A stretch of 64,000 nt of DNA from Candidatus Bathyarchaeota archaeon (GTDB taxonomy: Archaea; Thermoproteota; Bathyarchaeia; Bathyarchaeales; Bathycorpusculaceae), in assembly GCA_026014725.1 (NCBI GenBank), contig JAOZHV010000022.1, positions 124,001 through 188,000 of the forward strand, read 5' to 3'. The position numbers and the translations under genes are program-made. Position 1 is the stretch's first letter; each line of letters opens with the position of its first letter. The notes beneath the pieces were generated by a model. That model was not told where the DNA came from, made no database searches, and saw nothing but the letters and a program-made list of their open reading frames with translations. Below, one piece after another: positions 26,355 to 45,019 of the stretch.

Positions 26355-26415
26355 AATTTTGCAGGTTCAGCCTTCTGTAAGCTCTGGTGTAAGCCCTTTA
26401 ATGTGTAGTTCAAAT

Positions 26416-26434
26416 CCGAAACGCTTATATTTTC
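26416..26434 (+). promoter_or_regulatory. BRE/TATA promoter for the aromatic operon leader
   Basis: CCGAAACGCTTATATTTTC fits an archaeal BRE (CGAAAC) plus TATA (TTATAT). Transcription would start about 26450-26455, some 15-20 nt before the leader ORF and 160 nt before aspartokinase. Confidence 0.6.
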
Positions 26435-26468
26435 TGACCGAATGACTGATTGTCGGTTCGAAGCATAA

Positions 26469-26558
26469 ATGTCCAACGCAACTGCAAAAAACGAAAGCAA
26501 CACATCACAGTTCCTTAGCTTCGACTACGGCTTTTATTATTTCTATTATTTTCCTTAG
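26469..26558 (+). CDS. Phe/Tyr-rich leader peptide of the aromatic amino acid operon
   Basis: A 29-codon ORF (ATG 26469, TAG 26556-26558). The first 14 residues are ordinary (MSNATAKNESNTSQ); the last 15 are FLSFDYGFYYFYYFP, with five Phe and five Tyr. It ends 58 nt before aspartokinase, the first gene of an operon that makes chorismate and tyrosine precursors. The layout recalls bacterial pheA leader peptides, which measure charged tRNA by ribosome stalling. Immediately after the stop codon comes a GCCCAG/CTGGGC stem enclosing six T. An in-frame TAA sits directly before the ATG, so the ORF is self-contained. No strong ribosome binding site is visible. Caution: a T/A-rich tract yields F and Y codons by chance. 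Confidence 0.6.
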   Translation: MSNATAKNESNTSQFLSFDYGFYYFYYFP

Positions 26559-26596
26559 GCCCAGGGCTGAAAAGTTTTTTAAAAAAAGTTCTGGGC
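26559..26596 (+). promoter_or_regulatory. Candidate attenuator stem and T-run after the aromatic leader
   Basis: GCCCAG at 26559-26564 pairs with CTGGGC at 26591-26596. Between them is GTTTTTTAAAAAAAG, whose T6 (26575-26580) could act as an archaeal terminator and whose T and A tracts can pair with each other. The stem begins at the base after the leader stop codon, so a ribosome on the stop codon would cover it. Confidence 0.5.
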
Positions 26597-26616
26597 GAAA
26601 AAATGGGTGTAACTAA

Positions 26617-27852
26617 ATGGTAAATGGCAAAAAAATTGTGGTTAAATTTGGTGGTTCAAGCTTAGCTGATCACGAGAGACTCTTAAAAGCGGTTGTTGCC
26701 GTGGTGAACGAAGCAAAAAAAGGCACAAAAATCGCCGTTGTTGTTTCCGCCATGGGCAAAACTACGGATGTGCTTATGACCACTGCAAAAAATACTTCGA
26801 ATGGAAAACTGGAGAAGAAAGACTTAGATGACATCCTCTCGATGGGTGAGCGGACAAGCATACGCCTCTTCTCCGCTGCATTGAGAAGCAACGGGGCAAA
26901 CTCCTGCTACATAGACCCCATAGACAGTAACTGGCCAATAATAACTGACGAAGCATTCCAAAACGCAAACCCTGTCCTCAAGGAATGCAAAACAAAAATC
27001 CGCCAATGCATCCTGCCCATCATCGAGCAAGGCACCATTCCAGTAATTGCAGGATTCATCGGCAAAACCAAAGACGGCAAAGTCACCACGCTTGGCAGAG
27101 GCGGAAGCGACACCACAGCATTCTTACTAGCTGACGCTATAGGTGCTGACGAAATAATACTTGTCACGGACGCAGATGGCATCATGTCAGGCGACCCTAA
27201 AATCGTCGCTAACCCGCAACGACTCCCAGAAATCAACGTTAACACATTGGTGGGCTTGGCAGATTCAGGAGCCAAATTCATCCACAGCAAAGCCCTCAAG
27301 TACAAACCAAAAGACATCAACGTTAAAGTAATCAACCACGCGCACGGCGACTTGAGCAAAGACGGCACCATAATCACCGGAGCCCTAGCAAGCGACCTCG
27401 ACGCGGAAATAGCAAGCGCTCAGCCAGTTGCTGAAATAACTGTAATCGGAGACGGACTTGCATCCAGCCCAAAAATCATCCAAGAAATTGTGGAGAAAAC
27501 ACGCCAGCACTCGCAGCTTTTGGGCATGTCCATGAACTCAAACTCAATCATACTCTACGTTTCACAACAACCAAACCTACAACCACTGCTAAACGATATG
27601 CACAAAATAACTACTAGCAACAAAGAAGCCCTAGCCATGGCAGTCAAAAAAGACTTAGTCCTCATCAAAACAAGCGGAGTTGGGCTCGAAGAGACACACG
27701 GCATCATCGGCAGAATCAGCGAAGACTTAAGACTCAACGGCATAAACATCTCTGGCATACTCACCATAACCTCAAGCATTCTACTGTTTGTAGATTGGAA
27801 CGAAAAAGAGAAAGCGCTAAAATTAATTAAAAACGCGCTTAAAACACGTTAA
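26617..27852 (+). CDS. lysC: Aspartate kinase, first gene of the aromatic operon
   Basis: A 411-residue aspartokinase (aspartate + ATP to aspartyl phosphate). VVKFGGSSLADHERL (residue 8), LSMGERTSIRLFSAAL (near 80), GFIGKTKDGKVTTLGRGGSDTTA (near 150) and VTDADGIMSGDPKIV (near 190) are the kinase motifs. Two ACT domains (about 270-411) indicate feedback control. Its product leads to aspartate semialdehyde, the co-substrate of the next enzyme in this operon, which explains its placement here. GGGTG lies 8 nt before the ATG. Confidence 0.95.
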   Translation: MVNGKKIVVKFGGSSLADHERLLKAVVAVVNEAKKGTKIAVVVSAMGKTTDVLMTTAKNTSNGKLEKKDLDDILSMGERTSIRLFSAALRSNGANSCYIDPIDSNWPIITDEAFQNANPVLKECKTKIRQCILPIIEQGTIPVIAGFIGKTKDGKVTTLGRGGSDTTAFLLADAIGADEIILVTDADGIMSGDPKIVANPQRLPEINVNTLVGLADSGAKFIHSKALKYKPKDINVKVINHAHGDLSKDGTIITGALASDLDAEIASAQPVAEITVIGDGLASSPKIIQEIVEKTRQHSQLLGMSMNSNSIILYVSQQPNLQPLLNDMHKITTSNKEALAMAVKKDLVLIKTSGVGLEETHGIIGRISEDLRLNGINISGILTITSSILLFVDWNEKEKALKLIKNALKTR

Positions 27853-27866
27853 GGTGGAAAAAAGAA

Positions 27867-28655
27867 ATGAATGGAAAAACACGCAGATTAAAAAGAATCA
27901 TGCAAAAAGACAACCGAACAGTAATCGTGCCAATGGATCACGGTGTCACCATAGGGCCCGTGCAAGGCATAACTAACATGCAAAACATAACCAACCAACT
28001 CATCAAAGGAAAAGTGGATGCTATCCTTGTCCACAAAGGCATAGCAAAAAGCATCGACGTGGACGGCGCAGGCTTAATCGTTATGCTCTCAGGCATGTCA
28101 AACCTTAGCCCAAACATAAACAGCAAAGTCCAAGTTTGCTCTGTACAAGAAGCCATACGCCTAGGCGCAGACGCCGTGTCCGTACATGTCAACGTTGGGG
28201 CACAGGACGAAGACAAAATGCTCCGCAACCTCGGAAAAGTCTCAGACGAATGCGAAACTTACGGAATGCCGCTGTTGGCCATGATGTACCCGAGGGGACC
28301 AAAAATCCAAAGTGAACACGAAGTAACCGTTGTCGCGCACGCCGCACGAATCGGCGCAGAACTTGGCGCAGACATAATCAAAACAAACTACACAGGCAAC
28401 ATAGACTCCTTCAAAACAGTCATCGAAAGCTGCCCCGCACCCGTGGTAATCGCAGGAGGACCAAAATGCAAATCACTAGAGGAAATCTTGCAAACTACCC
28501 ATGACTCCATGAAAGCTGGCGCGGCAGGGCTATCCATCGGACGCAACGTCTTCCAATGCGAAAAACCAACCCAAATAGCGAGAGCACTACATGCTATCGT
28601 TCATGAAGGCGCATCCGTGGAGCAAGCGCTAAAAATTCTCGGTGAAAAAGCTTGA
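27867..28655 (+). CDS. aroA': 2-amino-3,7-dideoxy-D-threo-hept-6-ulosonate (ADH) synthase
   Basis: A 262-residue DhnA-type class I aldolase. It joins a ketofructose-phosphate with L-aspartate semialdehyde, the archaeal replacement for DAHP synthase. [15 protein letters not shown] (residue 20) is the family start motif; [10 protein letters not shown] (near 135) and the Schiff-base lysine in DIIKTNYTG (near 172) follow, with VVIAGGPKC (near 190) at the phosphate site. It starts 14 nt after aspartokinase and ends in a TTGA overlap with the next gene. Confidence 0.95.
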
Positions 28656-29689
28656 AGGAACTCTGGATTGAAATCCCCAAGACTTCGCCGAAAGAAAAAG
28701 AAAGGTTACTTAGTCTTGCTCATGAAAACGCGGATGTGGTCATAGAAAACAGTCAAGCCAGCAACCGCGCTGGAATACTTGACCTTACTTTTCTGCCAGA
28801 GTTAAATGAGAAAAAGATTGCCCAGCTAAAGAGTGAGGGCAAAAAAACCGCTTTTCAAGTAAGCATACAAGGCAAGGATGATGAGAACAAGGCAGCTAAA
28901 GCCGCAGAACTCGGCGTTGACTACGTAATCATAAACTGTCTTGATTGGCGAGTTATTCCGCTTGAAAACTTGATTGCGAAAAGTAGGGGAAAGAGCAAAC
29001 TCTTTGCCGAAGTTAATACGGCTGAAGACGCCAAGGTGGTTCTGGAAGTTTTAGAGCTTGGAACCGACGGCGTGTTGCTCAAGACCAGCGACCCAGAGGA
29101 GATGCTCAAAACAGTCGCTGTGGTAAAGCCTGAAACACTAAAACTTGACATGGCAATCGCCAAAATCACTTCCACAAAACCCATCAGCACAGGAGCCCGC
29201 GTCTGCGTCGACACATGCGACATGATGAGCCCCGGCGAAGGCATGCTTGTTGGCAGCCAAAGCGCAGGCTTATTTTTGGTGGAAGCGGAAGTGCACGAGA
29301 ACCCTTACGTAGCATCACGACCATTCAGGGTAAACGCTGGTTCGCTGTCCATGTACACGCTCGGCACCTTGCAGACCACAAGGTACCTCTCTGAGTTAAA
29401 AGCTGGAGAAGAAGTCATAATCGTTAACCGAGAAGGAAAAACACGCAAAACAAACGTGGGACGCGTAAAAATCGAAATCCGACCTCTCATCCTAATTGAA
29501 GCCGAAGTGGAAGGCAAAATCATCAAAACCATACTTCAGAATGCTGAAACCATACGCTTAGTCACGCCTAAAGCCTCAAAACCCGTTACGGAACTAAAAC
29601 CAAACGATGAAGTCTTAGTGCATTTAGCGGCTAAGGGAGGGCGACACTTCGGCATCAGCGTGCCTGAAGAAACGGTGATTGAAAAGTGA
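28652..29689 (+). CDS. aroB': 3-dehydroquinate synthase II
   Basis: A 345-residue archaeal DHQ synthase II, which oxidatively deaminates and cyclises the ADH-synthase product to 3-dehydroquinate with NAD. It starts [20 protein letters not shown]. Conserved blocks include RVCVDTCDMMSPGEGMLVGSQS (near 190) and VASRPFRVNAGSLSMYTLG (near 225). TTG start, overlapping the previous gene by 4 bp and the next by 4 bp (GTGA). It has no relation to bacterial AroB, so the pair with ADH synthase marks the archaeal pathway. Confidence 0.95.
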   Translation: MKELWIEIPKTSPKEKERLLSLAHENADVVIENSQASNRAGILDLTFLPELNEKKIAQLKSEGKKTAFQVSIQGKDDENKAAKAAELGVDYVIINCLDWRVIPLENLIAKSRGKSKLFAEVNTAEDAKVVLEVLELGTDGVLLKTSDPEEMLKTVAVVKPETLKLDMAIAKITSTKPISTGARVCVDTCDMMSPGEGMLVGSQSAGLFLVEAEVHENPYVASRPFRVNAGSLSMYTLGTLQTTRYLSELKAGEEVIIVNREGKTRKTNVGRVKIEIRPLILIEAEVEGKIIKTILQNAETIRLVTPKASKPVTELKPNDEVLVHLAAKGGRHFGISVPEETVIEK

Positions 29690-30369
29690 TTGCGAGAATC
29701 TGTGTTTCGATTCTCCCAAAAACTAACGAAGAAGCGCTAAGCCTCATTGAAAAAGCAGAAAAAGCCAAAGCTGACTTCATCGAAGTGAGGCTTGATTGCC
29801 TTGAAACTTCTCGAAACCTCAAAGACCTTGCCAAAAGCACAAAAACCCCATTAATCGCCACAAATAAACTCAAAAGCGAACAGGGCTTCTTCTCTGGAAC
29901 ACAAACCCAGCGGCAGGAAACATTGTTGAACGCAGCGAAAAACGGTTTCGAGTACGTTGACGTTGACCTTCCAAGCCAAAAGCATAAAGAAACAATTAAC
30001 CAACTAAAGCAGTTAGGTGCAAAACCAATCGCTTCCTACCACAAATTTGACGGCGCATTAAGTGCCTCAGAGATGGAAAAGATACTAGCCGAAGAGATTG
30101 CCAGCGGAGCCAGCGTATGCAAAATTATTACAACAGCAACCAAAGCCCAAGACAACCTGACTGCACTAAACTTTGTCGCCTCCGCCTCGAGCAAGGCTAA
30201 GTTGGTTTGTTTCTGCATGGGCGGACAGGGCAAAATCTCAAGGCTGCTTTCGCCGTTGTTTGGTGCATTCTTCACTTTCGCCTCACTTGAGGTGGGCAGT
30301 CAAACCGCCACGGGGCAGATGAGCATTAGCGAAATGAGGACTGCTTACAGTCTGTTGGGAATGAAATAA
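29686..30369 (+). CDS. aroD: 3-dehydroquinate dehydratase, type I
   Basis: A 227-residue class I aldolase-type dehydratase making 3-dehydroshikimate. ADFIEVRLDCLE (near 25), the catalytic histidine in IASYHKFDGA (near 117), the Schiff-base lysine in ASVCKIITTA (near 145), and CMGGQGKISRLLSPLFGAFFTFAS with the final GQMS (near 175-220) are in family order. GTG start with 4-bp overlap to the DHQ synthase gene. One base separates its stop codon from aroE. Confidence 0.95.
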   Translation: MIARICVSILPKTNEEALSLIEKAEKAKADFIEVRLDCLETSRNLKDLAKSTKTPLIATNKLKSEQGFFSGTQTQRQETLLNAAKNGFEYVDVDLPSQKHKETINQLKQLGAKPIASYHKFDGALSASEMEKILAEEIASGASVCKIITTATKAQDNLTALNFVASASSKAKLVCFCMGGQGKISRLLSPLFGAFFTFASLEVGSQTATGQMSISEMRTAYSLLGMK

Positions 30370-30370
30370 G

Positions 30371-31243
30371 ATGGGTATAACTGGAAAAACCAGAGTTTGC
30401 GCTGTTATAGGCGACCCTATAGAGCACACTCTTAGTCCTGTAATTCATAATGCGGCATTTGACGCCTTAAAGTTAGACATCGTATTCTTAGCGTTTAAAG
30501 TGAAACCCACCGAAGTTGGAAACGCCATAAACGGAATGCGAGCCCTAAATATTCTGGGCTTAAACGTTACTATGCCCCATAAAAAAGCGGTTATAGATCA
30601 GCTCGATAAATTAGACCAGACTGCAAAGTTTCTAAACGCGGTTAATACAATTCGCCACAAGAACGGTAAACTCTTTGGTTTTAACACTGATGGTGTCGGT
30701 GCACTGAAAGCTCTAAAAGAAAATAGTGTGCAACCGCGAGGCAGAAAAGTTTTGTTGCTGGGAGCAGGCGGAGCGGCAAGAGCCATAGCATACACGTTAG
30801 TAAAAGAAGCCGATGAACTTGTAATTTTGAACAGAACCATTAAGCAAGCAGAAGAGTTAGCAAAGCTCCTGACCAAGACGCAAAAAAAGCAGGTCACTGG
30901 TGGAGCCCTATCACCAAGTCTGATTCAACAGCACCTTCAAGACTCTGACATCTTGATTAATGCAACATCGGTGGGGATGAAGCCGAATGCTAACTTAAGC
31001 CCAGTGCCACCTGAATTTCTGAGGTCAAACCTCGCAGTAATGGATATTGTTTACAATCCTGTTGAAACTAAACTGGCAAGGGACGCTAAAGCCGCAGGAG
31101 CCAAAGTCATAAGCGGTGTTGAAATGTTAATTTACCAAGGTGCGGCATCGTTTGAAATCTGGACAGGATGCAAAGCACCCGTCGAAGTTATGAGGAAAGC
31201 AGCGCTTAATCACTTACAGGAGGCACAGACAGTTGACAGATAA
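30371..31243 (+). CDS. aroE: Shikimate dehydrogenase
   Basis: A 290-residue NADP-dependent enzyme reducing 3-dehydroshikimate to shikimate. VIGDPIEHTLSPVIHNAAFD (residue 13) binds shikimate, GLNVTMPHKKAVI (near 60) carries the catalytic lysine, FNTDGVGALKAL (near 100) the aspartate, and LLLGAGGAARAIAYTL (near 125) the NADP site. NATSVGM (near 195) and YQGAASFEIW (near 255) complete it. It overlaps the shikimate kinase start by 11 bp. Confidence 0.96.
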   Translation: MGITGKTRVCAVIGDPIEHTLSPVIHNAAFDALKLDIVFLAFKVKPTEVGNAINGMRALNILGLNVTMPHKKAVIDQLDKLDQTAKFLNAVNTIRHKNGKLFGFNTDGVGALKALKENSVQPRGRKVLLLGAGGAARAIAYTLVKEADELVILNRTIKQAEELAKLLTKTQKKQVTGGALSPSLIQQHLQDSDILINATSVGMKPNANLSPVPPEFLRSNLAVMDIVYNPVETKLARDAKAAGAKVISGVEMLIYQGAASFEIWTGCKAPVEVMRKAALNHLQEAQTVDR

Positions 31244-32102
31244 AGCTACAGCTATTGCTCACGGCGCAGCCACAATCATTAACGCGATTGCCTTGGGGAA
31301 AGGTGCCGCTTTCGGGGTTGATTTGTGGACTAAAGCAGAAGTGAAACTTACCAACGAACCCAACATAATCAAAGCAGAGATAACTGATGACCCAAGCGAG
31401 GGCACACTCTTAATAGAAAAAACCGTTTTCAGAGTCCTGCAACATTTCAATTTAGAAAAAAACTTTGGTGCCCAAGTAAAAACCAAGTCAAACATCCCCA
31501 TCGCACGAGGACTCAAAAGCAGCAGTGTAGCTGCAAACGCCGTTGCTCTTGCAACTACAGCGGCGCTTGGCAAAAAACTCAGTGATTTAGAGATTGTGAA
31601 AATTGGGGTTGAAGCGGCTTTTGATGCGAAAGTCACAATTACAGGCGCGTTTGATGATGCTTGTGCCTCATATTTTGGTGGAGCCGTAATTACTGATAAC
31701 ATTAACCGAGAAATAATTAAGCACTTGTCTTTGCCGCAAGATTTGGTTGTGCTCTTCCATGTACCCATCCAGAAAGCTTACACTGCGAACTCCAATGTGA
31801 AACGACTACAGACAGTTAAGCCTCTAGTGCAGGTCGCTTTCGATGCGGCGCTCAATGGCAAAGTTTGGGAAGCTCTAACGTTAAACGGGTTAATCTATTC
31901 AGCAGCATCCAACCTTCCTACTCCACTTATCGTTGACACATTGGAAGCTGGAGCTGTGGCGGCTGGACTCTGCGGTAAAGGACCTGCAGTGACTGTGGTG
32001 GTTTCAAAGGATAATGTTGATTCCGTGAAAGCTACAATGGCAAAATACGAGGGCGAGATTTTGCAGGCGCAGTTAAATCAGGAGAAAGCCAAGGTGCTCT
32101 AA
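31233..32102 (+). CDS. aroK: Shikimate kinase, archaeal GHMP type
   Basis: A 289-residue GHMP-superfamily kinase producing shikimate-3-phosphate; it is unrelated to the bacterial P-loop AroK. AHGAATIINAIALGKGAAFG lies near the start and the phosphate loop IPIARGLKSSSVAANAVALA near 90. FDDACASYFGGAVIT (near 140) and LCGKGPAVTVVV (near 250) are further GHMP motifs. TTG start with AGGAGG 9 nt upstream inside the end of aroE. Confidence 0.93.
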   Translation: MTDKATAIAHGAATIINAIALGKGAAFGVDLWTKAEVKLTNEPNIIKAEITDDPSEGTLLIEKTVFRVLQHFNLEKNFGAQVKTKSNIPIARGLKSSSVAANAVALATTAALGKKLSDLEIVKIGVEAAFDAKVTITGAFDDACASYFGGAVITDNINREIIKHLSLPQDLVVLFHVPIQKAYTANSNVKRLQTVKPLVQVAFDAALNGKVWEALTLNGLIYSAASNLPTPLIVDTLEAGAVAAGLCGKGPAVTVVVSKDNVDSVKATMAKYEGEILQAQLNQEKAKVL

Positions 32103-32105
32103 CTG

Positions 32106-33404
32106 ATGGCAAATGTAACCATCAAAAAAACTGAGAGGTTAAGCGGTCAGATTTGTGCGCCACCTTCCAAATCTTACACGCAAAGAATGGTCATTGCCTC
32201 AGTACTCGCTCAGGGCGCTTCTAAAGTTTCCAATCCCCTGTTGTCTGAGGATACGGAAGCTACGTTACGCGCTGTTTCTGCATTGGGCGCAAAAGTAAAA
32301 AAAAGCGAGAACTGCTGGATAATAGACGGCACACAGAAGCTCAAGGGTGCAGAAGAACCGATTGACTGCGGTGAGTCAGGCGCTACATTGCGTTTCATGA
32401 TTCCCGTGGCTGCGTTGGCTTCTGGCTCTTCGACGTTGGTGTTTGGGGGTTCTCTTGAGAGGCGACCAGTTGAGCCGTTACTTTTAAGCCTCAAACAACT
32501 GGGTGCAGAAGCCCACGTTGAAAAAGTAGGGAGTAAGGACGCTGTCTTCGTACAAGGCGGCGGAATCTTGGGCGGCAAAACATCGATTCCCGGTGATGTC
32601 AGTTCACAGTTCCTTTCAGGTTTAATGTTTGCTTGCCCTAGGGCTAGGGCGGATACTGAAATAACGTTAACTTCAGGGTTGGAGTCGGCGGATTACGTTA
32701 AAATGACCGAGGCAGTTCTTTCCAAGCACGCAATCACCATAGGAGTACAAGACAAGCGTATAGTTATTCCAGCTAACCAAACCTACAAGGCAACAGATGA
32801 CAAAGTCCCAGGCGACTTCTCCTCCGCAGCGTTTCTCCTTGCTGCCGCAGCTATAACCAACTCGAAAGTCCAAGTAAGCAACCTTGACTACGAGAGCGTT
32901 CAAGGCGACAAGGCAATCTTGAGTATCCTAAAGCAGATGGGTGTCAACGGCAAAGTCTGCAAAGACAGCGTTGAAATAGAGGGGTCAGGCGGTTTGCTTG
33001 AGCCGATTAAGGTTGACGCCAAAAATATTCCTGACCTTGTTCCAGCAATCGCGGTTCTTGCGTGTTATGCGAAGGGCACCTCTAGGATTTTTGGGGCTAA
33101 ACGGTTGCGGCTCAAAGAGTCAGATAGGTTGAGGTCTCTTTATTCTGAGCTTGGAAAAATGGGTGCGCAAATAATTATGGATGATGATAGTTTAACCGTG
33201 AATGGCGGTTGCCAGTTGCATGGAGCGCTCATCGACCCTCATAATGACCATCGTATCGCGATGGCTTGCGCTGTTGCCTCTTTAGGTGCAGAAGGCACGA
33301 CCACTATACAAGATGCCCATTGTGTTCGAAAGTCTTATCCGCAGTTCTTCACTCATTTAAAACAAATAGGAGCTGATGTAGTTGGCGGGAAATTCGATAG
33401 GTAA
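32106..33404 (+). CDS. aroA: 3-phosphoshikimate 1-carboxyvinyltransferase (EPSP synthase)
   Basis: A 432-residue enzyme that adds phosphoenolpyruvate to shikimate-3-phosphate. APPSKSYTQRMVIAS (residue 18), DCGESGATLRFMIPVAAL (near 88), GSLERRPVEPLL (near 113), GDVSSQFLSGLMFA (near 162), RLKESDRLRSL (near 337) and DPHNDHRIAMA (near 375) are the conserved sites. Six-fold inside-out barrel repeats are complete. Its end overlaps the chorismate synthase start by 23 bp. Confidence 0.96.
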   Translation: MANVTIKKTERLSGQICAPPSKSYTQRMVIASVLAQGASKVSNPLLSEDTEATLRAVSALGAKVKKSENCWIIDGTQKLKGAEEPIDCGESGATLRFMIPVAALASGSSTLVFGGSLERRPVEPLLLSLKQLGAEAHVEKVGSKDAVFVQGGGILGGKTSIPGDVSSQFLSGLMFACPRARADTEITLTSGLESADYVKMTEAVLSKHAITIGVQDKRIVIPANQTYKATDDKVPGDFSSAAFLLAAAAITNSKVQVSNLDYESVQGDKAILSILKQMGVNGKVCKDSVEIEGSGGLLEPIKVDAKNIPDLVPAIAVLACYAKGTSRIFGAKRLRLKESDRLRSLYSELGKMGAQIIMDDDSLTVNGGCQLHGALIDPHNDHRIAMACAVASLGAEGTTTIQDAHCVRKSYPQFFTHLKQIGADVVGGKFDR

Positions 33405-34485
33405 AGAATTCACAATAACCACTTTCGGGGAAAGCCACGGCAAAGTCGTAGGAGTAGTCGTGGACGGCTGCCCCGCAGGCTTACCGCTCACAGAAGCCGA
33501 TTTTCAAGAAGAGCTTGACCGCAGAATTCCAACAGAGCCAAAGATTGTTTCCGCAAGAGTCGAAAAAGACACTGCCAAAATCCTAAGCGGCGTTTTTAAC
33601 GGTTTCACAACTGGTGCGCCCATCGCTTTGACGGTTGAGAATAAGGAGACAAAGTCCAGCGATTACGAAGCCATCAAAGACCTGCCAAGACCTGGGCACT
33701 CTGATTATCCAGCACACGTCAGATACGGAGGCTTTAATGACTATCGCGGTGGCGGACGCTTCTCAGGTAGAGTCACCGTGGCGCTCATCATGGCTGGCAC
33801 CATAGCCAAAAAGCTGCTGGGTAGATACAACATTGACGTTCTAGCTTACACTGTGGCAATTGGCAACATTAAAAGTGATAAACGGTTTAGCGCTCAGGAA
33901 ATCCGCAAAAACCGTTACGAGGCAGCGACCCGTTGCCCCGATTTGGCGTGCGCAGAAAAGATGGAAGAAGCCATAGTCACCGCGAAAAGAGAAGGCGATA
34001 GCCTAGGCGGTATAGTTGAATGCATCGCGCTGAACATGCCTGTAGGGATTGGCGAGCCATTGTTCGACTCGTTAGATGCTGACTTAGCAAAGATGCTGTT
34101 CTGTATTCCCGCTGTGAAAGGTGTCGAGTTTGGCTCAGGCTTTGCAGCCGCTGGAATGCGAGGTTCAGAAGACAACGACGCTTTTCTCATCAAAAACGGG
34201 AAAGTTGTCACCTCAACCGAGCACGCAGGCGGAATTCTCGGCGGCTTATCAAGCGGCATGCCCATACGGATAAAAGTGGCAATTAAGCCCACGCCGTCCA
34301 TAAGCAAGCAACAGAAAACCGTTAACATCTGCTCAATGGAAGAAGCTACTCTGAGTGTAAAGGGCAGACATGACCCCTGCGTAGTTCCAAAGGCAGTGCC
34401 AGTAGTCGAAGCCACGGTTGCCATAACTTTAGCTGACCACCTGCTCCGTTCAGGTTTCATACCGAAGGTTCTCAAGGAGCATTAA
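33382..34485 (+). CDS. aroC: Chorismate synthase
   Basis: A 367-residue FMN-dependent enzyme that converts EPSP to chorismate. TTFGESHGKVVGVVVDGCPAG (near 12-33), LPRPGHSDYPAHVRYG and FNDYRGGGRFSGRVTVA (near 95-130) and KGRHDPCVVPKAVPVVEA (near 330) are signatures of the family. TTG start at 33382 with GGAG about 9 nt upstream, within aroA. Two bases separate it from the chorismate mutase gene. Confidence 0.96.
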   Translation: MAGNSIGKEFTITTFGESHGKVVGVVVDGCPAGLPLTEADFQEELDRRIPTEPKIVSARVEKDTAKILSGVFNGFTTGAPIALTVENKETKSSDYEAIKDLPRPGHSDYPAHVRYGGFNDYRGGGRFSGRVTVALIMAGTIAKKLLGRYNIDVLAYTVAIGNIKSDKRFSAQEIRKNRYEAATRCPDLACAEKMEEAIVTAKREGDSLGGIVECIALNMPVGIGEPLFDSLDADLAKMLFCIPAVKGVEFGSGFAAAGMRGSEDNDAFLIKNGKVVTSTEHAGGILGGLSSGMPIRIKVAIKPTPSISKQQKTVNICSMEEATLSVKGRHDPCVVPKAVPVVEATVAITLADHLLRSGFIPKVLKEH

Positions 34486-34487
34486 GC

Positions 34488-34748
34488 ATGGATGACATCG
34501 CAAAGTTGAGGAAGCGTATAGATGAAATTGATGACCAAATCCTTTTGGCGCTTTGTGAGAGGGTGAAAGTTTGCAAAGCCATCGGGGACTTGAAAAAAAG
34601 TCAGGGCATGCCGATTAAGGATGTATATAGGGAAAATGAGGTTTACAAGCGTATTAGCGAAAAAGCCGCTGAATTAGGCCTAGATAAAGGTCAAGTTGAG
34701 GCGGTTTACCGCGAAATAGTTAATATGTGCAGTGCTGTTCAAGAGTGA
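34488..34748 (+). CDS. Chorismate mutase (AroQ type)
   Basis: An 86-residue all-helical chorismate mutase that makes prephenate. LRKRIDEIDDQILLALCERVKVCKAIGDLKKSQGMPIKD is the typical first helix and loop, with the active-site arginine (residue 8) and the RVKVCKAIGDLKK basic positions. Helix 3 (KGQVEAVYREIVNMC) is complete. As a monofunctional protein it sits between chorismate synthase and the aminotransferase, feeding both tyrosine and phenylalanine branches. Confidence 0.9.
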   Translation: MDDIAKLRKRIDEIDDQILLALCERVKVCKAIGDLKKSQGMPIKDVYRENEVYKRISEKAAELGLDKGQVEAVYREIVNMCSAVQE

Positions 34749-34773
34749 GGACTCTTAACGGAGAGTTGACTCT

Positions 34774-35853
34774 ATGCTATATGAAATAAACGAGAAAGCC
34801 CTAAAACTTCAAAGTGAAGGAAAAAAGATAATTCGATTAAACCTTGGTGACCCAGACATGGCTACGCCGCCTGAGATAGTGGACGCTGCGTATGCGGCTA
34901 TGAAAGCTGGGAAAACCAAGTATTCATCCTCTTACGGCGAGCTAAAACTCAGGCAAAAACTTGCTGAAATCCACGATGTTAAAGTTGAGAACGTGGTTAT
35001 TACGCCTGGTTCTAAATGGGGCATATTCGCTACTATGTTCTTGATGATGAAGGGCGGCGGTAACGTCATTATTCCGACTCCTTACTGGACAGCTTACGAT
35101 TTGACAGCCAAAGCCATTGGCGCAAATACCAAACTGTTGCGAACCGAGCTTGAGAACGACTGGAAAGTTGACCTTGACAAGCTCGAAGACATGATTGACA
35201 AGGACACCCGCATGATAATACTCAACAATCCAAACAACCCCACAAGCAAGGTCATTGACCCCGAAACACTTGATGGCATAGTTGAAATCGCAAACAAGAA
35301 GGGCATCACCATCCTCTCTGATGAGGTTTACGGTACTATCGCATTCACGAGGACTAAAAGCATCCTTGAATACGACGGCGACTGCAGGCATATACTCTCA
35401 AACGGCTTTTCTAAAACCTTCACCATGACTGGCTGGCGCATCGGCTACATAATCGCCAACAAAATGCTAGTCGACAACATAACTAAACTCAACCAAATCA
35501 CCATAAACAACGTGCCGGTGTTCATTCAGGAGGCAGCCTTAAAAGGACTTGAAATACAACAGCAACTATCAACAGACATAAAAGAAGAGTACGAGGAACG
35601 GGCAAAGATGGCAAGTAAAATCTTAAGCGAAGCAGGGCTCTCCTTCTCAAAACCTGACGCGCCATTCTACGTGTTCCCAAAGCGTCCAGGCTTAGACTCT
35701 GAAAGGTTCGCTTTAGATCTGCTTGACAAAGGCGTGGCTGTTGCTCCGGGCACAGCGTTTGGCGATTACAGAGAGCACTTTAGAATTTCCTTGACTGCGC
35801 CAAGAGAAGAAATAAAGGAAGGTTTGGTTAAAATTAGTGAGGCTCTTGGATGA
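34774..35853 (+). CDS. Class I aminotransferase (aspartate or aromatic)
   Basis: A 359-residue PLP enzyme, fold type I. NLGDPDMATPPEI (near 25), the PLP-stacking PTPYWTAYD (near 95), LNNPNNPTSKV (near 150), SDEVYGTIAF (near 182) and the PLP lysine in NGFSKTFTMTGWRIGY (near 211) are clear. Its place between chorismate mutase and prephenate dehydrogenase suggests transamination of prephenate or aromatic ketoacids, or of aspartate. Start ATG 34774 follows GGAGAGTTGA. Overlaps tyrA by 4 bp. Confidence 0.9.
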   Translation: MLYEINEKALKLQSEGKKIIRLNLGDPDMATPPEIVDAAYAAMKAGKTKYSSSYGELKLRQKLAEIHDVKVENVVITPGSKWGIFATMFLMMKGGGNVIIPTPYWTAYDLTAKAIGANTKLLRTELENDWKVDLDKLEDMIDKDTRMIILNNPNNPTSKVIDPETLDGIVEIANKKGITILSDEVYGTIAFTRTKSILEYDGDCRHILSNGFSKTFTMTGWRIGYIIANKMLVDNITKLNQITINNVPVFIQEAALKGLEIQQQLSTDIKEEYEERAKMASKILSEAGLSFSKPDAPFYVFPKRPGLDSERFALDLLDKGVAVAPGTAFGDYREHFRISLTAPREEIKEGLVKISEALG

Positions 35854-36725
35854 AAATTGCCGTCATCGGCGCGGGAAAGATGGGTGTTTGGTTCGCCCGA
35901 TTTTTTCAATCCAAAGGTTACACTGTAACTTTAGCTGATAGAAAACAAGAAAAACTTTCTAAACTAAGAAAAGAATTACAAGTTGTCACTACCACTGATT
36001 TTAAGAAGGCAGTCCAAGGTGCCGACCAAATCCTGCTTTCTGTATCGATAAGTGCTTTTGAAGAAGTTGTCAAAGCAATCAGCCCAGCCGTCTGCAAAGG
36101 CCAAGTTGTTATGGATGTTTGCTCAATCAAAGAAACCCCCGTTACCATCATGCATAAGTACATCAAAGACGGCTTGGTTTTGGGGACGCATCCTGTTTTT
36201 GGTCCAGGAAGCAACGGCGTCAAACACAAAGCCTACGTCCTCACTCCAACCAACAGCAAAGAGCAAGAGTTCGCTGAGCAATTCAAACAGTGGCTGGAAA
36301 AAGAAGAAGCGCATGTTTTTGTCATGACGCCAAAAAAACATGATGAGTTAATGTCTGTTGTTTTGGGTTTGCCTCACTTTTTGGGTTTAGTTGCATGTGA
36401 AACGTTGCTTGAACAAAAAAATCTGGCTGAGACAAAAAAAGTCGCAGGCACCACCTACCGCATGCTCTTCACGTTGGCAGAAGCCACGGCACTGGAAACA
36501 CCTGACCTCTATGCAAACCTGCAGATGAACCTGCCTGAACTGAACAAAATTGAAGACCAATTTATGAGTAAAGCCCAAGAATGGCTCAGCCTAATAAAAG
36601 CTAAAGACTCCAACGCCATAGTCGAGCGAATGGAACAGCTAAAGAAGAAGCTGATGGCTTGTGACAGCGACTTTGAGAAATCCTACGAAGTCATGTATAA
36701 AATGCTGGAATCGACCGAAAAATAA
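35850..36725 (+). CDS. tyrA: Prephenate dehydrogenase
   Basis: A 291-residue NAD(P)-dependent enzyme for the tyrosine branch. IAVIGAGKMGVWFARFFQSKGY is the dinucleotide-binding start; ILLSVSISAFEEVVKAI, MDVCSIKETPVTIM (near 90) and GTHPVFGPGSNGVKHKAYVLTP (near 113) match TyrA. MSVVLGLPHFLGLV (near 170) leads into the helical dimerisation domain. It ends in charged helices without a recognisable ACT domain. The last clear aromatic-pathway gene on the plus strand. Confidence 0.93.
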   Translation: MKIAVIGAGKMGVWFARFFQSKGYTVTLADRKQEKLSKLRKELQVVTTTDFKKAVQGADQILLSVSISAFEEVVKAISPAVCKGQVVMDVCSIKETPVTIMHKYIKDGLVLGTHPVFGPGSNGVKHKAYVLTPTNSKEQEFAEQFKQWLEKEEAHVFVMTPKKHDELMSVVLGLPHFLGLVACETLLEQKNLAETKKVAGTTYRMLFTLAEATALETPDLYANLQMNLPELNKIEDQFMSKAQEWLSLIKAKDSNAIVERMEQLKKKLMACDSDFEKSYEVMYKMLESTEK

Positions 36726-37369: not shown

Positions 37370-38182
37370 TTAGATAACTCTTGGGTAAGAGCCCAGAACT
37401 TTCACAAATGTCGCGTATTTTTCAAGCGCTTGCAGGGCTTCAGCACAGCGTTTCTCTGTCCGGTGACCCTCAAAGTCAAGGTAGAAGTTGTATTGCCAAG
37501 CAGTTTTCTTTGTGGGTCGTGATTCGATTCTGGTTAGATTGATGTTTCTTGACGCAAATTCACCCAGCGCGTGGTAGAGGGTTCCAGGCTCGTGTTTGCC
37601 TGAGAATATGATTGAGGTTTTATCATCTCCCGTTGGTGCTGCATCCTCATGTGAGAGCACAAGGAAGCGTGTGTAGTTTGCGGGGTTGTCGGCGATGTCT
37701 CTTACGAGGATTTTCATGCCGTAAAGGTCAGCGGCTTTTTCGCTTGCGATGGCAGCGGCATTTGCGAGGTTTTTCTCCCTTATGATTTTGACGGCTCCAG
37801 CAGTGTCGTAGGCTGGGATGATTTCCCACTTGTGCTTCTCCAAATACTTGCGGCACTGGGCAAGCGCTTGGGGATGTGAGTAGACGGTTTCTATGTCCTC
37901 AAACTTGGTCTGCGGATTGCCAATTAGAACGTGAGCGAGTTTTACTGCGACTTCGCCGCAGACTTTGAGGTCGTAAGTGAGGAATAAATCGTAGTTTTGG
38001 TTGACGCTGCCCTCAATGGAGTTTTCAATCGGAACCACACCATGCGGGGTAGCGCCTGTGTTCACGGATTCAAAGACATCACGAAAGTCCTTGCAGGGTA
38101 CTGGCTCTACTTTTCTGCCGAAGAACTTGTAAACAGCCATTTCGCTGTAAGCACCAGTTTCTCCCTGATAGGCTACTTTCAC
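37370..38182 (-). CDS. pheA: Prephenate dehydratase with ACT domain
   Basis: A 270-residue enzyme making phenylpyruvate. The periplasmic-binding-like catalytic domain (1-180) has YQGETGAYSEMAVYKFF, GVVPIENSIEGSVNQNYDLF and YTRFLVLS (the Thr-Arg-Phe motif). The ACT domain (about 190-270) has GTLYHALGEFASRNINLTRIESRPTKK, binding phenylalanine for feedback. It is the last gene of the branched-chain operon, overlapping leuA by 4 bp, not part of the aromatic operon whose end lies only 12 bp away. Confidence 0.95.
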   Translation of the reverse strand: MKVAYQGETGAYSEMAVYKFFGRKVEPVPCKDFRDVFESVNTGATPHGVVPIENSIEGSVNQNYDLFLTYDLKVCGEVAVKLAHVLIGNPQTKFEDIETVYSHPQALAQCRKYLEKHKWEIIPAYDTAGAVKIIREKNLANAAAIASEKAADLYGMKILVRDIADNPANYTRFLVLSHEDAAPTGDDKTSIIFSGKHEPGTLYHALGEFASRNINLTRIESRPTKKTAWQYNFYLDFEGHRTEKRCAEALQALEKYATFVKVLGSYPRVI

Positions 38183-39711
38183 TTTTTGTTTCCCTGCTTA
38201 CGATTCTTAAGTAGGCACTTGTTTATACCGTTTATCATCGCCTCAACACTTGCCATAACAATGTCTTCTCGTGCCGCGCGCGCTGAGACAACGTTGCCTC
38301 TCTCGTCTTCTACTTTTATGACGACCTCTGCGACTGCGTTTGAACCGCCCGTGATAGCTTCCAGTCGGTATTCGCTGAGGCGAATCTTTTCCAAGTTATT
38401 AGTTAACTTCTGGATAGCTTTCAAAACCGCGTCCACTGGGCCAACCCCTGTTTCCGCCGCAATGTACTCTTTTCCATCCAAAACCAAGCGTACGGATGCG
38501 GTTGGAATGACTTTTATGCCTGTTACCACTGCCAAATCGCACAAGTCAACGATTTTCTCTTCACCAATAACCTCACCCATGACGGCAGAGGTTAATGCCA
38601 GCAAGTCAGCGTCAGTGACCATTTTGCCTTTATCGCCTAAGTCTTTGACGCGCTGGACAATTTCTTTTAATTGTGTTTCATTGGGGTGGATGCCGATTTC
38701 TTCCAGCTCCGCTTTGATGCCGCGTGTTCCCGCCAATTTTCCAGCGACAAGTTTTCTGGTTCGCCCCACCAATTCGGGTTTTATGGGTTCGAATGTTAGG
38801 GGTTTTTCTGTTACTCCGCGCGTGTGTATGCCTGATTCATGCGCAAAGGCGTTTTCTCCGACTATGGCTTTGTTTGCCTGCACAGGTATGCCTGTTAAGG
38901 AGGCAACCATGCGGGAAGTGCTGTAGAGCAAACGTGTGTTCACACCTGTCTTGTACTTGTAAATCACATGCAGAGCCATGACTACTTCTTCGAGCGAGGC
39001 GTTTCCTGCGCGTTCGCCTAAGCCGTTGACTGCAACATGCACTTGGGAGGCGCCTGCTTCAACGGCGGCCAGAGAGTTTGCTACGGCTAATCCGAAGTCG
39101 TCGTGGCAGTGGATGCTTATTGGAACAGTGACTACTTTTTTGATTTCTTCAATCAGCTTGCTGGTTGTTTTAGGAATCATTATGCCGACTGTGTCAGGCA
39201 CGTTTAGGCTGTCCATGCCTGCATCCTGAGCTGCTTTACATACGCGTTTTAGGAAAGGCAACTCTGAGCGGGTGGCATCCATGGGTGAGAACTCGCATTT
39301 TATGCCATGCTTCTTCACGTACTCGATTGAATCCACCGTTGCAGATAGCACTTGCTCAGGAGTCAAATTTACTGCATACTTCATCTGTACAGGCGAAGTT
39401 GGGATGAAAACGTGGATTAAGTCAAGGTCACAGTCGATTGCAGCGTCAATGTCAGCTTTTGTTGCACGTGACAAGCCGCAGATTTTTGAGGTTAAGCCTG
39501 CGTGGGCAATTTCTTTGACGACTTTTTTTTCGCCTTCGGAAGAGCTTGGGAACCCTGCTTCGATTACGTCTACGCCTAGTTTGCTTAGTTGGCGTGCAAT
39601 CTCGATTTTGTCTTCAGCGGTTAAGGATACTCCGGGGGTTTGTTCTCCGTCTCTTAGGGTTGTGTCAAAAATGCGGATGGCTCTTGAATTTTTATTGTTC
39701 ATTTTCTTCAA
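38179..39711 (-). CDS. leuA: 2-isopropylmalate synthase / citramalate synthase family
   Basis: A 510-residue acyl-CoA aldol synthase. The TIM barrel begins IRIFDTTLRDGEQTPGVSLT (near 12) and has the metal-binding HCHDDFGLAVANSLAAVEAGA (near 205), GERAGNASLEEV (near 235) and HESGIHTRG (near 295). The C-terminal LeuA regulatory domain (about 380-500) carries leucine or isoleucine feedback sites. Leucine synthase and citramalate synthase cannot be separated with confidence by eye; the leuCDB neighbours suit both. Confidence 0.88.
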   Translation of the reverse strand: MKKMNNKNSRAIRIFDTTLRDGEQTPGVSLTAEDKIEIARQLSKLGVDVIEAGFPSSSEGEKKVVKEIAHAGLTSKICGLSRATKADIDAAIDCDLDLIHVFIPTSPVQMKYAVNLTPEQVLSATVDSIEYVKKHGIKCEFSPMDATRSELPFLKRVCKAAQDAGMDSLNVPDTVGIMIPKTTSKLIEEIKKVVTVPISIHCHDDFGLAVANSLAAVEAGASQVHVAVNGLGERAGNASLEEVVMALHVIYKYKTGVNTRLLYSTSRMVASLTGIPVQANKAIVGENAFAHESGIHTRGVTEKPLTFEPIKPELVGRTRKLVAGKLAGTRGIKAELEEIGIHPNETQLKEIVQRVKDLGDKGKMVTDADLLALTSAVMGEVIGEEKIVDLCDLAVVTGIKVIPTASVRLVLDGKEYIAAETGVGPVDAVLKAIQKLTNNLEKIRLSEYRLEAITGGSNAVAEVVIKVEDERGNVVSARAAREDIVMASVEAMINGINKCLLKNRKQGNKK

Positions 39712-40745
39712 CCAGTTTTCACTGTTAAAGCTGCAGCAATGGCTTCCGCCATTCCCACGGTCGTGGTGTTGCCGCCGCAGTCTGGAACAGTTTGACCGTT
39801 ACGTAACGCGTAGATTACTCCTTTTTCTATGGCTTGTCCTGCTTGTAAACATTTTTTGTCCTTGTATTTTTCGCCCAGCCAATCCATCATCATCTTTGCC
39901 GCAAGAATCATTGAGATGGGGTTTGCAGTGTGTTTTCCTGCCCTGTTGGGTGCTGAACCGTGAATTGGTTCGAATAGTGCGAAATCGTCGCCTACGTTTG
40001 CGCCTGGAGCCATACCTAACCCTCCGATTTGTTGCGCTGCTTCGTCGCTTAGGATGTCGCCGAACATGTTGCAGGTGCATAAGACGTCGAATTCTTGGGG
40101 TTCTTTGATTAAACGCATGGAAGCGGCGTCAACGTAGAGTTCGTTGAAGGCGATGTCTGGGTATTGTTTTGCTGTTTCGCGGCAGACGCTGGCGAACAAT
40201 CCGTCGGTTACTCGCATGACGTTTGCTTTGTGTATGGCGGTGACTTTCTTTTTGCCGTTGCGTAAACGTGCAATTTCGAAGGCTTTTTTTGCTATGCGTT
40301 CGCATGCTTTTCTGGTAATTAATCGTATGCATATGGTTGTGTTTGGGTCTAGGGTGTGTTCTAAGCCCTTGTAAACGTCTTCAGTGTTTTCTCTAACAAA
40401 GTACATGTCAATGTCTGGTCGCGCCACTGGAACGGCTGGGTAAGCTTTTATTGGTCGTAAGTTAGCATACAAATCAAACATTAAACGCAGTTTCACGATA
40501 ACGTCTGCTGCGCTTTCGCCCACTGGTCCCTTTAGGCAGGCGTGGGAATTCTTAATTTTTTCCACGGTGTCTAGGGGCAGTGCGACGCCTCGTTTGGCTA
40601 GTGTTGTGTCTCCTGCTTCTGCTTCGATGATTTGTAGTTTTATTCCAAAGTTTTTTTGCACTGAATCTAGGACTTTCAGGGTGGCTTCGGTTAATTCTGG
40701 TCCGATGCCGTCGCCTGGAATCAGGGATATTTTGTATTCTTTCAT
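39708..40745 (-). CDS. leuB: 3-isopropylmalate dehydrogenase family protein
   Basis: A 345-residue NAD(P)-dependent beta-decarboxylating dehydrogenase. ISLIPGDGIGPELT at the start, DMYFVRENTEDVYKGLEHT (near 112-130), KANVMRVTDGLF (near 170), VDAASMRLIKEP (near 205) and FGDILSDEAAQQIGGLGMAPGAN (near 228) are in family order. ENTEDVYKGLEH suits the isopropylmalate/isocitrate class; the operon favours isopropylmalate. It overlaps the leuA and leuD genes by 4 bp each. Confidence 0.92.
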   Translation of the reverse strand: MKEYKISLIPGDGIGPELTEATLKVLDSVQKNFGIKLQIIEAEAGDTTLAKRGVALPLDTVEKIKNSHACLKGPVGESAADVIVKLRLMFDLYANLRPIKAYPAVPVARPDIDMYFVRENTEDVYKGLEHTLDPNTTICIRLITRKACERIAKKAFEIARLRNGKKKVTAIHKANVMRVTDGLFASVCRETAKQYPDIAFNELYVDAASMRLIKEPQEFDVLCTCNMFGDILSDEAAQQIGGLGMAPGANVGDDFALFEPIHGSAPNRAGKHTANPISMILAAKMMMDWLGEKYKDKKCLQAGQAIEKGVIYALRNGQTVPDCGGNTTTVGMAEAIAAALTVKTG

Positions 40746-41242
40746 TTTTTATTTATTCTCCTTCGTAAATGTTCAATTAATCCGCCATCCGCAAAAATTT
40801 CCAATATGAATGGTGGAAGCTTGTCTACTTGGAATTTCTTGCCGTTTGACAGGTTCTCTATTTTACCTGCTTCGAAATCCACGGCTAACTCGTCGCCTGT
40901 CTTAACTGCGGCAGATATGCCCTTGCACTCGATGACTGGTAAGCCGATATTTATGGAGTTGCGGAAAAAGATTCTGGCGAAAGACTCTGCGATAACGCAT
41001 TTCACACCTGAATACTTTAGTGCCAAGGGCGCTTGCTCTCGGCTTGAGCCGCAACCGAAGTTTTTGCCGCCGACTACGATTACGCCTGCTTTAGCTTTGT
41101 TAACGAACTCTGTGTCTAAGCTTTCCAGTGCATGCTGGGCTAGCTCGTTTGGGTTAACAAGCGTTAAGTATTTGCCTGGCAAGATTACGTCTGTGTCGAT
41201 GTTGTTGCCGAACACTATAGCTTTCGCTTTGATGCTGGTCAT
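40742..41242 (-). CDS. leuD: 3-isopropylmalate dehydratase small subunit
   Basis: A 166-residue aconitase swivel-domain subunit. FGNNIDTDVILPGKYL (residue 12) and GKNFGCGSSREQAPLALKYSGVKCVIAESFARIFFRNSINIGLPVIE (near 58-105) are diagnostic. It works with LeuC in the isomerisation of isopropylmalate and probably of citramalate. Archaeal small subunits are stand-alone, as here. Overlaps leuC by 4 bp. Confidence 0.95.
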   Translation of the reverse strand: MTSIKAKAIVFGNNIDTDVILPGKYLTLVNPNELAQHALESLDTEFVNKAKAGVIVVGGKNFGCGSSREQAPLALKYSGVKCVIAESFARIFFRNSINIGLPVIECKGISAAVKTGDELAVDFEAGKIENLSNGKKFQVDKLPPFILEIFADGGLIEHLRRRINKK

Positions 41243-42507
41243 GCTTTTGCCTCCAATTGCTGTGCACTGGTGATTTTACCTGTTACTGCTGACGCGGCAA
41301 CGGTTGCAGGCGAAGCTAAATAGACGCTTGCCTGAGTGCTACCCATTCTTCCAATGAAGTTGCGGTTTGATGAACTGACACAGACTTCGCCTGCAGCTAA
41401 CAAGCCGATGTGCCCGCCTAAGCAGGGCCCGCATGCTGAACCGCACACTATGGCGCCTGCATCCGTGAAGATTTCCAGTAAGCCTTCTTGCATGGCTTGG
41501 CGGTAAACTTCTTGTGAAGCTGGAATTACAAGGGCACGCACGCCATCTTTGACCCGTTTGCCTTTCAGGACTTGGGCTGCTAAACGTAAGTCTTCGATGC
41601 GCCCGTTCGTGCATGAACCGATGAATGCTTGGTCTATTGGGACGTTGCCGACTTCTGAAACTGGCTTAACATTGTCAACTGATGAGGGGCAAGCAACCTG
41701 CGGCTCCATGTCCGACACATCAAATTCTACAGTGCGCTCGTAAACAGCATCAGCATCACTTTTCAGACCTGCAAAGTCTGGCATTGATTTGACTCTGCCT
41801 TGCAGAAACTTGCGCGTTGTCTCATCAGGCTCTACTATGCCATTCTTAGCGCCCATTTCTACTGCCATGTTACACAGTGTCATTCTACCTGCGATGCTCA
41901 TGTTTTTGACTGTTGGTCCCGTGAATTCTGCGCTTTTGTATATGGCGCCGTCTACGCTTAACTTGCCGATTATGTTTAGGATTAGGTCTTTTGGTGTAAC
42001 GTACTTTTGAAAGTCTCCAGTTACGTTTACTTTGATTGATGATGGGACTTTGAACCAGATTTTTCCTGTGGCGAAAACTGCGGCTGCTTCGGTTGAGCCG
42101 ATGCCTGTAGCGAAAGCTCCGAATGCTCCGTACGTGCAAGTGTGGGAGTCTGCGCCTACAATTACTGTACCTGGGACTACGTGCCCCTTCTCAGACATAA
42201 CTTGATGACAGATTCCACCCCTGCCTACATCATAGAATGGCAGGTTTTGTTCTTTGGCAAATTGTCGCATCGTCTTGTGCAGTTCTGCTGCCTTAACAGA
42301 TTCTGCGGGAACCTGATGGTCCAGAATTACAACTACTTTTTTGTTATCCCAAACTTTTTGTACGCCTATTTTTTTGAAGGCTTCCACAGCTAAAGGTCCA
42401 GTCAGGTCATGCACCATGACCACATCGACATTTGCATCGATGATTTCTCCGGGGTGCACGGCTTTTTTGCCTGAGGCTTTAGCCAAGATTTTTTCTGTGA
42501 TGTTCAC
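41239..42507 (-). CDS. leuC: 3-isopropylmalate dehydratase large subunit
   Basis: A 422-residue aconitase-family subunit. VMVHDLTGPLAVEAFKKIG (near 30), DHQVPAESVKAAELH (near 60), the ADSHTCTYGAFGAFATGIGSTE substrate segment (near 118), the 4Fe-4S ligands in FIGSCTNGRIEDLRLAA (near 300) and CGSACGPCLGGHIGLLAAGE (near 355) are present. GTG start after AGGAAATGA. The 95-nt gap from ilvN is the only notable internal spacing in this operon. Confidence 0.95.
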   Translation of the reverse strand: MNITEKILAKASGKKAVHPGEIIDANVDVVMVHDLTGPLAVEAFKKIGVQKVWDNKKVVVILDHQVPAESVKAAELHKTMRQFAKEQNLPFYDVGRGGICHQVMSEKGHVVPGTVIVGADSHTCTYGAFGAFATGIGSTEAAAVFATGKIWFKVPSSIKVNVTGDFQKYVTPKDLILNIIGKLSVDGAIYKSAEFTGPTVKNMSIAGRMTLCNMAVEMGAKNGIVEPDETTRKFLQGRVKSMPDFAGLKSDADAVYERTVEFDVSDMEPQVACPSSVDNVKPVSEVGNVPIDQAFIGSCTNGRIEDLRLAAQVLKGKRVKDGVRALVIPASQEVYRQAMQEGLLEIFTDAGAIVCGSACGPCLGGHIGLLAAGEVCVSSSNRNFIGRMGSTQASVYLASPATVAASAVTGKITSAQQLEAKA

Positions 42508-42602
42508 GATTTTTCATTTCCTAATTATTTAGATTCTATACTTGAATAAATGGGGATTTTGCGGGAACATACAATTAAGGATTTCCGCTTTGACGTTGGC
42601 AT

Positions 42603-43115
42603 TTATTCGTCGATTCTGACTGATTTGGCTCCACGTGCTAGCGCTGTTATGCCTGTTCTGGCTTGTTCGATGACTCCGAAGGGTTTCATGAGGTTTAGGA
42701 AGGCGTCGATTTTGTCAGGGGTTCCTGTTATTTCGACAGTTAAGCTGTCACTTGACAGGTCGATTGCTCTGCCGCGGAAGACTTCGATTATGTTGATAAT
42801 GTCAGTGCGTTCTTTAGGTGTTGGCACGTTAACTTTTATCAAAGCAAGTTCACGCATCACGTAGGTTCCTGGTTGCAGTTCTTCGACTTTGAGGACATCG
42901 ATTTGCTTTGCTAGTTGCTTGATTACTTGCTCGATTGTTTTTTCGTCTCCAATAACAGTGATTGTCATGCGTGAAACTTTTTCTTGCTCGCTGAGCCCAA
43001 CGGTTATGCTGTCAATGTTAAAGTTTCTTCGTCTAAACAGGTTAGCTACTCCGTGCAGTACTCCTGGCTTGTTTTCGACCAACACGGAAATGACAGTTGA
43101 TTTTTGTACTTCCAT
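42603..43115 (-). CDS. ilvN: Acetolactate synthase small (regulatory) subunit
   Basis: A 170-residue subunit with two ACT-like domains. It starts MEVQKSTVISVLVENKPGVLHGVANLFRRRNFNIDSI (start at ATG 43115 with GAGGAGA upstream; the frame is open to 43172). The second domain from about 75 has RELALIKVNVP and closes with GVIEQARTGITALARG. It binds valine and activates IlvB. A single base separates it from the ilvB stop codon. Confidence 0.93.
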   Translation of the reverse strand: MEVQKSTVISVLVENKPGVLHGVANLFRRRNFNIDSITVGLSEQEKVSRMTITVIGDEKTIEQVIKQLAKQIDVLKVEELQPGTYVMRELALIKVNVPTPKERTDIINIIEVFRGRAIDLSSDSLTVEITGTPDKIDAFLNLMKPFGVIEQARTGITALARGAKSVRIDE

Positions 43116-43116
43116 T

Positions 43117-44823: not shown

Positions 44824-44845
44824 TTCATTTTTTCTCCTTTATCAA

Positions 44846-44908: not shown

Positions 44909-44922
44909 GTTGCCTGGGAGAG

Positions 44923-44979: not shown

Positions 44980-45019
44980 TCCTCGTAAATTCTACGTTCC
45001 TTGAAACCTACAGCGCTAA

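Follow-up and report, generated by a model that had tools for sequence, protein, structure and literature searches.

What is a short open reading frame crowded with phenylalanine and tyrosine codons doing immediately in front of an aromatic amino acid operon in a member of the Candidatus Bathyarchaeota? In the window, by which we mean the whole 64,000-nucleotide stretch of DNA that was analysed, this upstream ORF (uORF) occupies positions 26469-26558 of the + strand and encodes a leader peptide of 29 codons, MSNATAKNESNTSQFLSFDYGFYYFYYFP, ending at a TAG stop codon (26556-26558). The very next nucleotide begins a stem, GCCCAGGGCT (26559-26568) with AGTTCTGGGC (26587-26596), that encloses a run of six T residues (T6, 26575-26580), and 58 nt separate the leader stop from the ATG of the aspartokinase gene (AK) at 26617. 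A sequence-only reading had described the ORF, the stem, the T6, a promoter-like element and the distances between them, and re-reading of the sequence bears all of these out. Start codons, Shine-Dalgarno sequences (SDs) and transcription starts are predictions throughout, the transcription start of the window leader being placed from the position of its TATA element. The features are as follows.

26415..26433, + strand: promoter, BRE/TATA-like element TCCGAAACGCTTATATTTT, seen in the sequence and nearly invariant in the genus, with the motif recurring in genus relatives some 40 nt ahead of the uORF ATG
26455..26464, + strand: GGTTCGAAGC, 5' strand of helix P1, lying where the transcript is predicted to begin and complementary to the first part of the F/Y block
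26469..26558, + strand: leader ORF, 29 codons plus TAG, MSNATAKNESNTSQFLSFDYGFYYFYYFP, F/Y-enriched, with start and stop kept in all genus relatives
26518..26524, + strand: GCTTCGA, 3' strand of helix P1, at the front of the control block, where it overlaps the first Ser-Phe codons
26520..26555, + strand: control block FDYGFYYFYYFP with 9 Phe/Tyr codons, supported by the stop-proximal aromatic profile across families
26559..26596, + strand: hairpin P2, 10 bp with T6 in the loop, its 5' arm starting at the first nucleotide past the stop, with double changes in the family
26604..26610, + strand: SD of aspartokinase, TGGGTGT, predicted from sequence
26617..27852, + strand: aspartokinase, first gene of the operon (NF005159, 385 bits against a cut-off of 379)
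27867..36725, + strand: remaining aromatic operon, ADH synthase through prephenate dehydrogenase

Aspartokinase is followed in order by genes for ADH synthase, 3-dehydroquinate synthase II, aroD, aroE, archaeal shikimate kinase, EPSP synthase and chorismate synthase, and the operon ends with chorismate mutase, an aminotransferase and prephenate dehydrogenase. In the archaeal route ADH synthase is fed by aspartate semialdehyde, which derives from the aspartokinase product, and aspartokinase is thus well suited to the first position. In nearly every locus read far enough, the aspartokinase behind an F/Y leader heads a shikimate/aromatic operon. We note that prephenate dehydratase (pheA) lies elsewhere in the window, at the end of a run resembling ilvB-ilvN-leuC-leuD-leuB-leuA (37370-44823, minus strand, pointing toward the aromatic operon; gene names from ORF reading, without a family search), and Phe-specific synthesis may therefore share a transcript with branched-chain genes and not with the aromatic operon.

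A/T-rich DNA favours F and Y codons by itself, a weakness that the sequence-only reading had conceded. In the window, 9 of the last 14 codons are aromatic. Dinucleotide shuffling of the entire upstream region yields 2.28 on average (p=0.001) and shuffling of the 42-nt block alone yields 4.5 (p=0.004), and the other two frames of the block carry 2 aromatics each; since the excess beats both types of shuffle, the objection is answered. The same holds for representatives of the class. For each divergent leader the most aromatic ORF within a fixed interval was taken as the uORF, and this choice was repeated in the whole-region shuffles, the best ORF being taken anew in every shuffle; these shuffles were exceeded in 23/23 representatives (p<=0.037). 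Shuffles of the 42-nt block, which control for local U-richness, were exceeded in 22 of the 23 (p<0.05) in a frame-specific manner, with fewer aromatics in the other two frames; because the representatives are partly dependent, a combined p-value for the local shuffles is only indicative, and at least eight families with unalignable leaders agree. In every family the aromatic codons fill positions -1 to -13 before the stop and fall to background level beyond, and none of the 78 distinct class leaders lacks an aromatic among its last three codons. In six of the seven families that could be compared, the leaders favour the Tyr codon TAT, which is read by wobble, more than the AK gene of the same genomes does; such a bias would be expected if these are sensitive control codons, and it could reflect slower decoding or selection for U.

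With aspartokinase as the anchor, we sampled 61 relatives and then widened the comparison to the class (257 genomes) and the phylum (299). The uORF is present in all 31 genus genomes with a readable upstream region, and in each the order is an S-F-(D/E/G)-Y-x-F-Y-Y.. block, the stop, GCCCAG..CTGGGC and the SD. Across the aligned genus leaders the ATG is kept, with a single GTG in its place, the frame is maintained, and gaps in the F/Y block are almost all of 3, 6 or 9 nt. Trp occurs within some of these leaders (L007, L020, L026, L027 and L029). The first aromatic codon is TTC in 26/31, which is consistent with a nucleotide constraint from helix P1. A loss of the ORF or of the F/Y block in orthologues, or a frame broken by indels, had been named in advance as grounds for rejecting the leader; it survives this comparison, given its presence in 31/31 genomes, its codon-sized gaps and the retention of the block in unrelated families.

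Beyond the genus, F/Y-rich ORFs of unrelated nucleotide sequence occupy the same place in families f5, f6, f9, f12, f13, f14 and f19 and in several other genera of f1, with blocks such as SSMFYSFSYFFYN, PFFGRFGYFGY, FFTYFSGYYTTF, YYYYYYYCFF, FYFFYCYYFFEG and FSGYWYFFNY; no comparable block was found in class families f10, f15, f18, f21, f26 and f27. Outside the class, leaders of the same type precede AK in about three families, namely in f33 (two of the three leaders there), in genus g140 of f34 and in f38 (three leaders), all with p<0.035 in both shuffle tests and with blocks FDTYSFSYFFYYSF, FFYGVWSFYYFALA and GFSTFTTFSYYYRW, and f32 is weak, one of its four leaders falling below 0.05 in both. 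In f33, f34 and one f38 genome the operon reads aspartokinase-ASD-ADH synthase-DHQ synthase-aroD-aroE-SK-EPSPS; in L295, the other f38 genome read, aspartokinase and ASD alone were recognized behind the leader. A covariance model found the element once per genome, before aspartokinase, in the 61 genomes, with no second copy above noise and no other strong match there.

Other leaders were also met. A crude scan, in which operon starts were not located and the hisG anchor was the longest ORF and often not hisG, made no Trp-rich or His-rich leaders evident before trpE or hisG. In other class families (L243, L245, L249, L251, L254, L255 and L267-L273) a different conserved motif around GTTTTCGGTGATGGCGTTTAC precedes AK-ASD; it lies near the predicted transcript 5' end, and one of its frames reads VFxxxxVY. 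Families f10, f15 and f18 are among those that have another conserved leader motif. In the window a second leader, ATGAGGGAT(C/T)GTCACCTCAATAGCTGGGATCGTCGGGTA, lies upstream of ilvB (43117-44823) at 44824-45000 on the minus strand. It is nearly invariant in nucleotides in 30/30 relatives read, its ORF encodes MRDxHLNSWDRxV plus about 3 variable residues (VLIL in the window), its substitutions are mostly non-synonymous transitions and it has no credible Rfam match; it looks more like a structured RNA or an operator than a peptide.

The usual companion of the F/Y block is the hairpin that follows it. It begins 0-4 nt beyond the stop, and usually at 0, in nearly all leaders, mostly with z-scores between -2 and -7 (in the window dG is -16.9 and z -3.9); the predicted hairpins are weak in L035, L237 and L260. 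Three pairs of P2 show double changes in the window's family, and other families carry a hairpin of wholly different sequence at the same place. Its 3' end lies only a few nucleotides from the AK SD, the distance being 6 nt in 17/31 genus leaders although loop length varies; this spacing was measured inside the stop-to-SD window, which bounds its possible variation. Helix P1 pairs GGTTCGAAGC with GCTTCGA where the F/Y block begins, and seven pairs are kept in 39-40 of 40 distinct leaders with one compensatory double change; it is nearly invariant, so that complementarity supports it and covariation is weak. When no ribosome intervenes, P1 would cover the start region of the uORF itself. Searched against Rfam up to E=5, the leader element matched no RNA family, T-boxes and other riboswitches included.

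Alternative pairing of the F/Y block with the hairpin 5' arm is striking by eye in several families and falls to chance level after shuffling, and two mutually exclusive structures of the antiterminator/terminator kind were accordingly not found by this comparison, in both respects with the exception of L051/L246. In these f9 leaders the F/Y codons TTTCTTCAGC form a perfect 10-nt complement of the hairpin 5' arm GCTGAAGAAA (p=0.003), an arrangement that resembles the 2:3 versus 3:4 pairing of bacterial attenuators.

How the hairpin might act is clearest in f38. In L284, L286 and L288 it is predicted to contain the AK SD itself, the 5' arm directly after the stop pairing with it; folding predicts the SD to be unpaired with a probability of 0.02-0.12 with the hairpin and 0.35-0.51 with the first 11 nt masked, and its accessibility with the hairpin is below that obtained with shuffled upstream sequence (p=0.005-0.04). 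L274 of f33 shows the same predicted hiding (p 0.005), and in f34 (L285 and L287) masking leaves accessibility unchanged. The f38 pattern, as folded, is the logic of translational attenuation with the hairpin as the off state. In the window's family the hairpin is predicted not to pair with the SD, which becomes no more accessible when the 5' arm is masked; across the class leaders as a whole, an intact hairpin goes with a slightly more open SD (mean 0.066, p=0.006), opposite to prediction. The sequence-only reading had offered access to the AK ribosome-binding site as an alternative output, and this idea gains from the predicted sequestration in f38 and loses from the window hairpin, which is predicted not to pair with the SD.

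We suggest that the leader is probably a ribosome-mediated attenuator that senses aromatic amino acids and whose hairpin would lower AK expression. A ribosome would load near the 5' end of the transcript and translate the leader peptide. With charged tRNA-Phe and tRNA-Tyr (sometimes also tRNA-Trp) plentiful, it would run through and be released at the stop, and the post-stop hairpin would then fold against the AK ribosome-binding site and lower expression. With charged tRNA scarce, ribosomes would dwell on the aromatic codons, which reach within one to three codons of the stop; the size of the ribosome footprint is such that a ribosome near or at the leader stop would overlap the hairpin 5' arm, and with its front edge there the hairpin would stay open and the operon be expressed. 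What emerges from comparing the genomes is the coding block, its choice of amino acids, frame and position, the hairpin, the SD spacing, the operon and the predicted SD sequestration in f38; ribosome stalling and the direction of control are what we infer from sequence. That the leader peptide acts as a sensor is highly likely. Given sensing, the chances of a translational output with the hairpin as off are about even, transcription termination is somewhat doubtful and the opposite geometry, with the hairpin as on, is unlikely. For the window's family, AK translation rather than transcription as the output would be an extrapolation from f38, since the hairpin there adjoins the SD and folding predicts no hiding of it.

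The same sensor might instead act on transcription, the freed hairpin with a U-tract, or the U-rich F/Y block, causing termination (intrinsic or through FttA/aCPSF1) from which a stalled ribosome would shield the transcript. FttA has a preference for U-rich stretches some 30-36 nt back from the RNA 3' end (PMC11616081), which is close to the distance between the U-rich F/Y block and the T run in the window; T4-T5 directly follows the hairpin in some families (f6, f9 and f12), and a review has speculated that ribosomes and aCPSF1/FttA are mutually exclusive in archaea (PMC8116511). Against this, the T run is missing from a subclade of the genus (e.g. L016, L022 and L024-L027), T runs between stop and SD are not longer than in dinucleotide shuffles, and the F/Y codons are retained even where the U fraction of the block drops to 0.38 (f5) or 0.36 (f6 g56). 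The absence from the subclade and the chance-level length rule out T6 as a conserved terminator, and no intrinsic terminator with a U-tract was found before the first gene. We regard control of transcription as doubtful. The attenuation originally proposed keeps its Phe/Tyr-codon leader peptide before an aromatic operon and a ribosome whose position can control the hairpin, and loses its termination step at T6.

Quite unlikely is a geometry in which the post-stop hairpin is the on state, a ribosome at the stop masking the 5' arm and thereby releasing the 3' arm to sequester the SD or make another off-structure. The positions of the stop and the 5' arm do match region 2 of bacterial attenuators, and masking reduces SD accessibility in some f6 and f12 leaders; however, the freed 3' arm pairs with the SD no more than shuffled arms do (Wilcoxon p=0.95), L051/L246 alone show above-chance pairing between F/Y block and 5' arm, and the f38 hairpins are predicted to sequester the SD directly. 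A TnaC-like nascent chain that arrests the ribosome in response to free Phe/Tyr, not charged tRNA, would suit a C-terminal part that is aromatic, conserved and stop-proximal. It is very improbable, as a conserved peptide with fixed C-terminal residues was not found: the last residue varies (P, R, T, S, N, K, H, L or others), the spacing of the aromatics shifts by codon-sized gaps, and other families have the composition in common, not the sequence. The U-rich block and the hydrophobic peptide of the window would suit a small functional protein or a non-coding element of U-rich nucleic acid, a reading that we give hardly any credence in view of the unconserved N-terminal half of the peptide, the frame-specific F/Y excess left by local shuffles and the tight packing of the block against stop, hairpin and SD.

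Returning to the attenuator that senses aromatic amino acids, we lean slightly towards the broader view that leader-peptide attenuation is old and widespread in the phylum to which the Bathyarchaeia belong, acting mainly on AK translation, with control codons conserved amid turnover, and that it is independent of the bacterial systems. Textbooks present leader-peptide attenuation as a bacterial mechanism, and discussion of archaeal amino-acid operons usually centres on DNA-binding regulators. No established archaeal leader-peptide attenuator was found in the full-text literature, a body that leaves subscription papers mostly outside and older suggestions possible; archaeal Ribo-seq in M. mazei has pointed to possible uORFs in general terms (PMC11456600). 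If such attenuation is deeply conserved in archaea, the position of a ribosome would be shown to control operons there, and the locus would offer both a natural system for the interplay of ribosome, RNA polymerase and FttA and a signature for finding further leaders.

Among the closest known systems are the attenuators of the E. coli pheL/pheA and trpL type, which likewise place a short ORF rich in codons for the end product just ahead of a biosynthetic operon, with a hairpin downstream, and the archaeal leader has the first of these defining traits in full. In pheL, as here, the control codons extend up to the stop. The archaeal leader differs in having an archaeal host and promoter, a hairpin that starts from the stop codon and no detected sequence relation, and it is set apart from the bacterial class because mutually exclusive terminator and antiterminator structures and a conserved U-tract terminator were looked for and not found. 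A uORFC-13-1 motif upstream of bacterial aroF (PMC8632094) similarly places a uORF with Phe codons before a shikimate-pathway gene, but with a bacterial promoter, an intrinsic terminator, as few as one Phe codon and an unrelated structure. With the translational attenuators of ermC and cat the leader has in common a hairpin that adjoins (in f38, is predicted to contain) the downstream SD and that a ribosome near the end of the leader would open; the signal there is a drug whereas charged tRNA is proposed here, and in the window's family the SD lies beside the hairpin. The kind of mechanism is known from bacteria, and its proposed archaeal form appears to be new.
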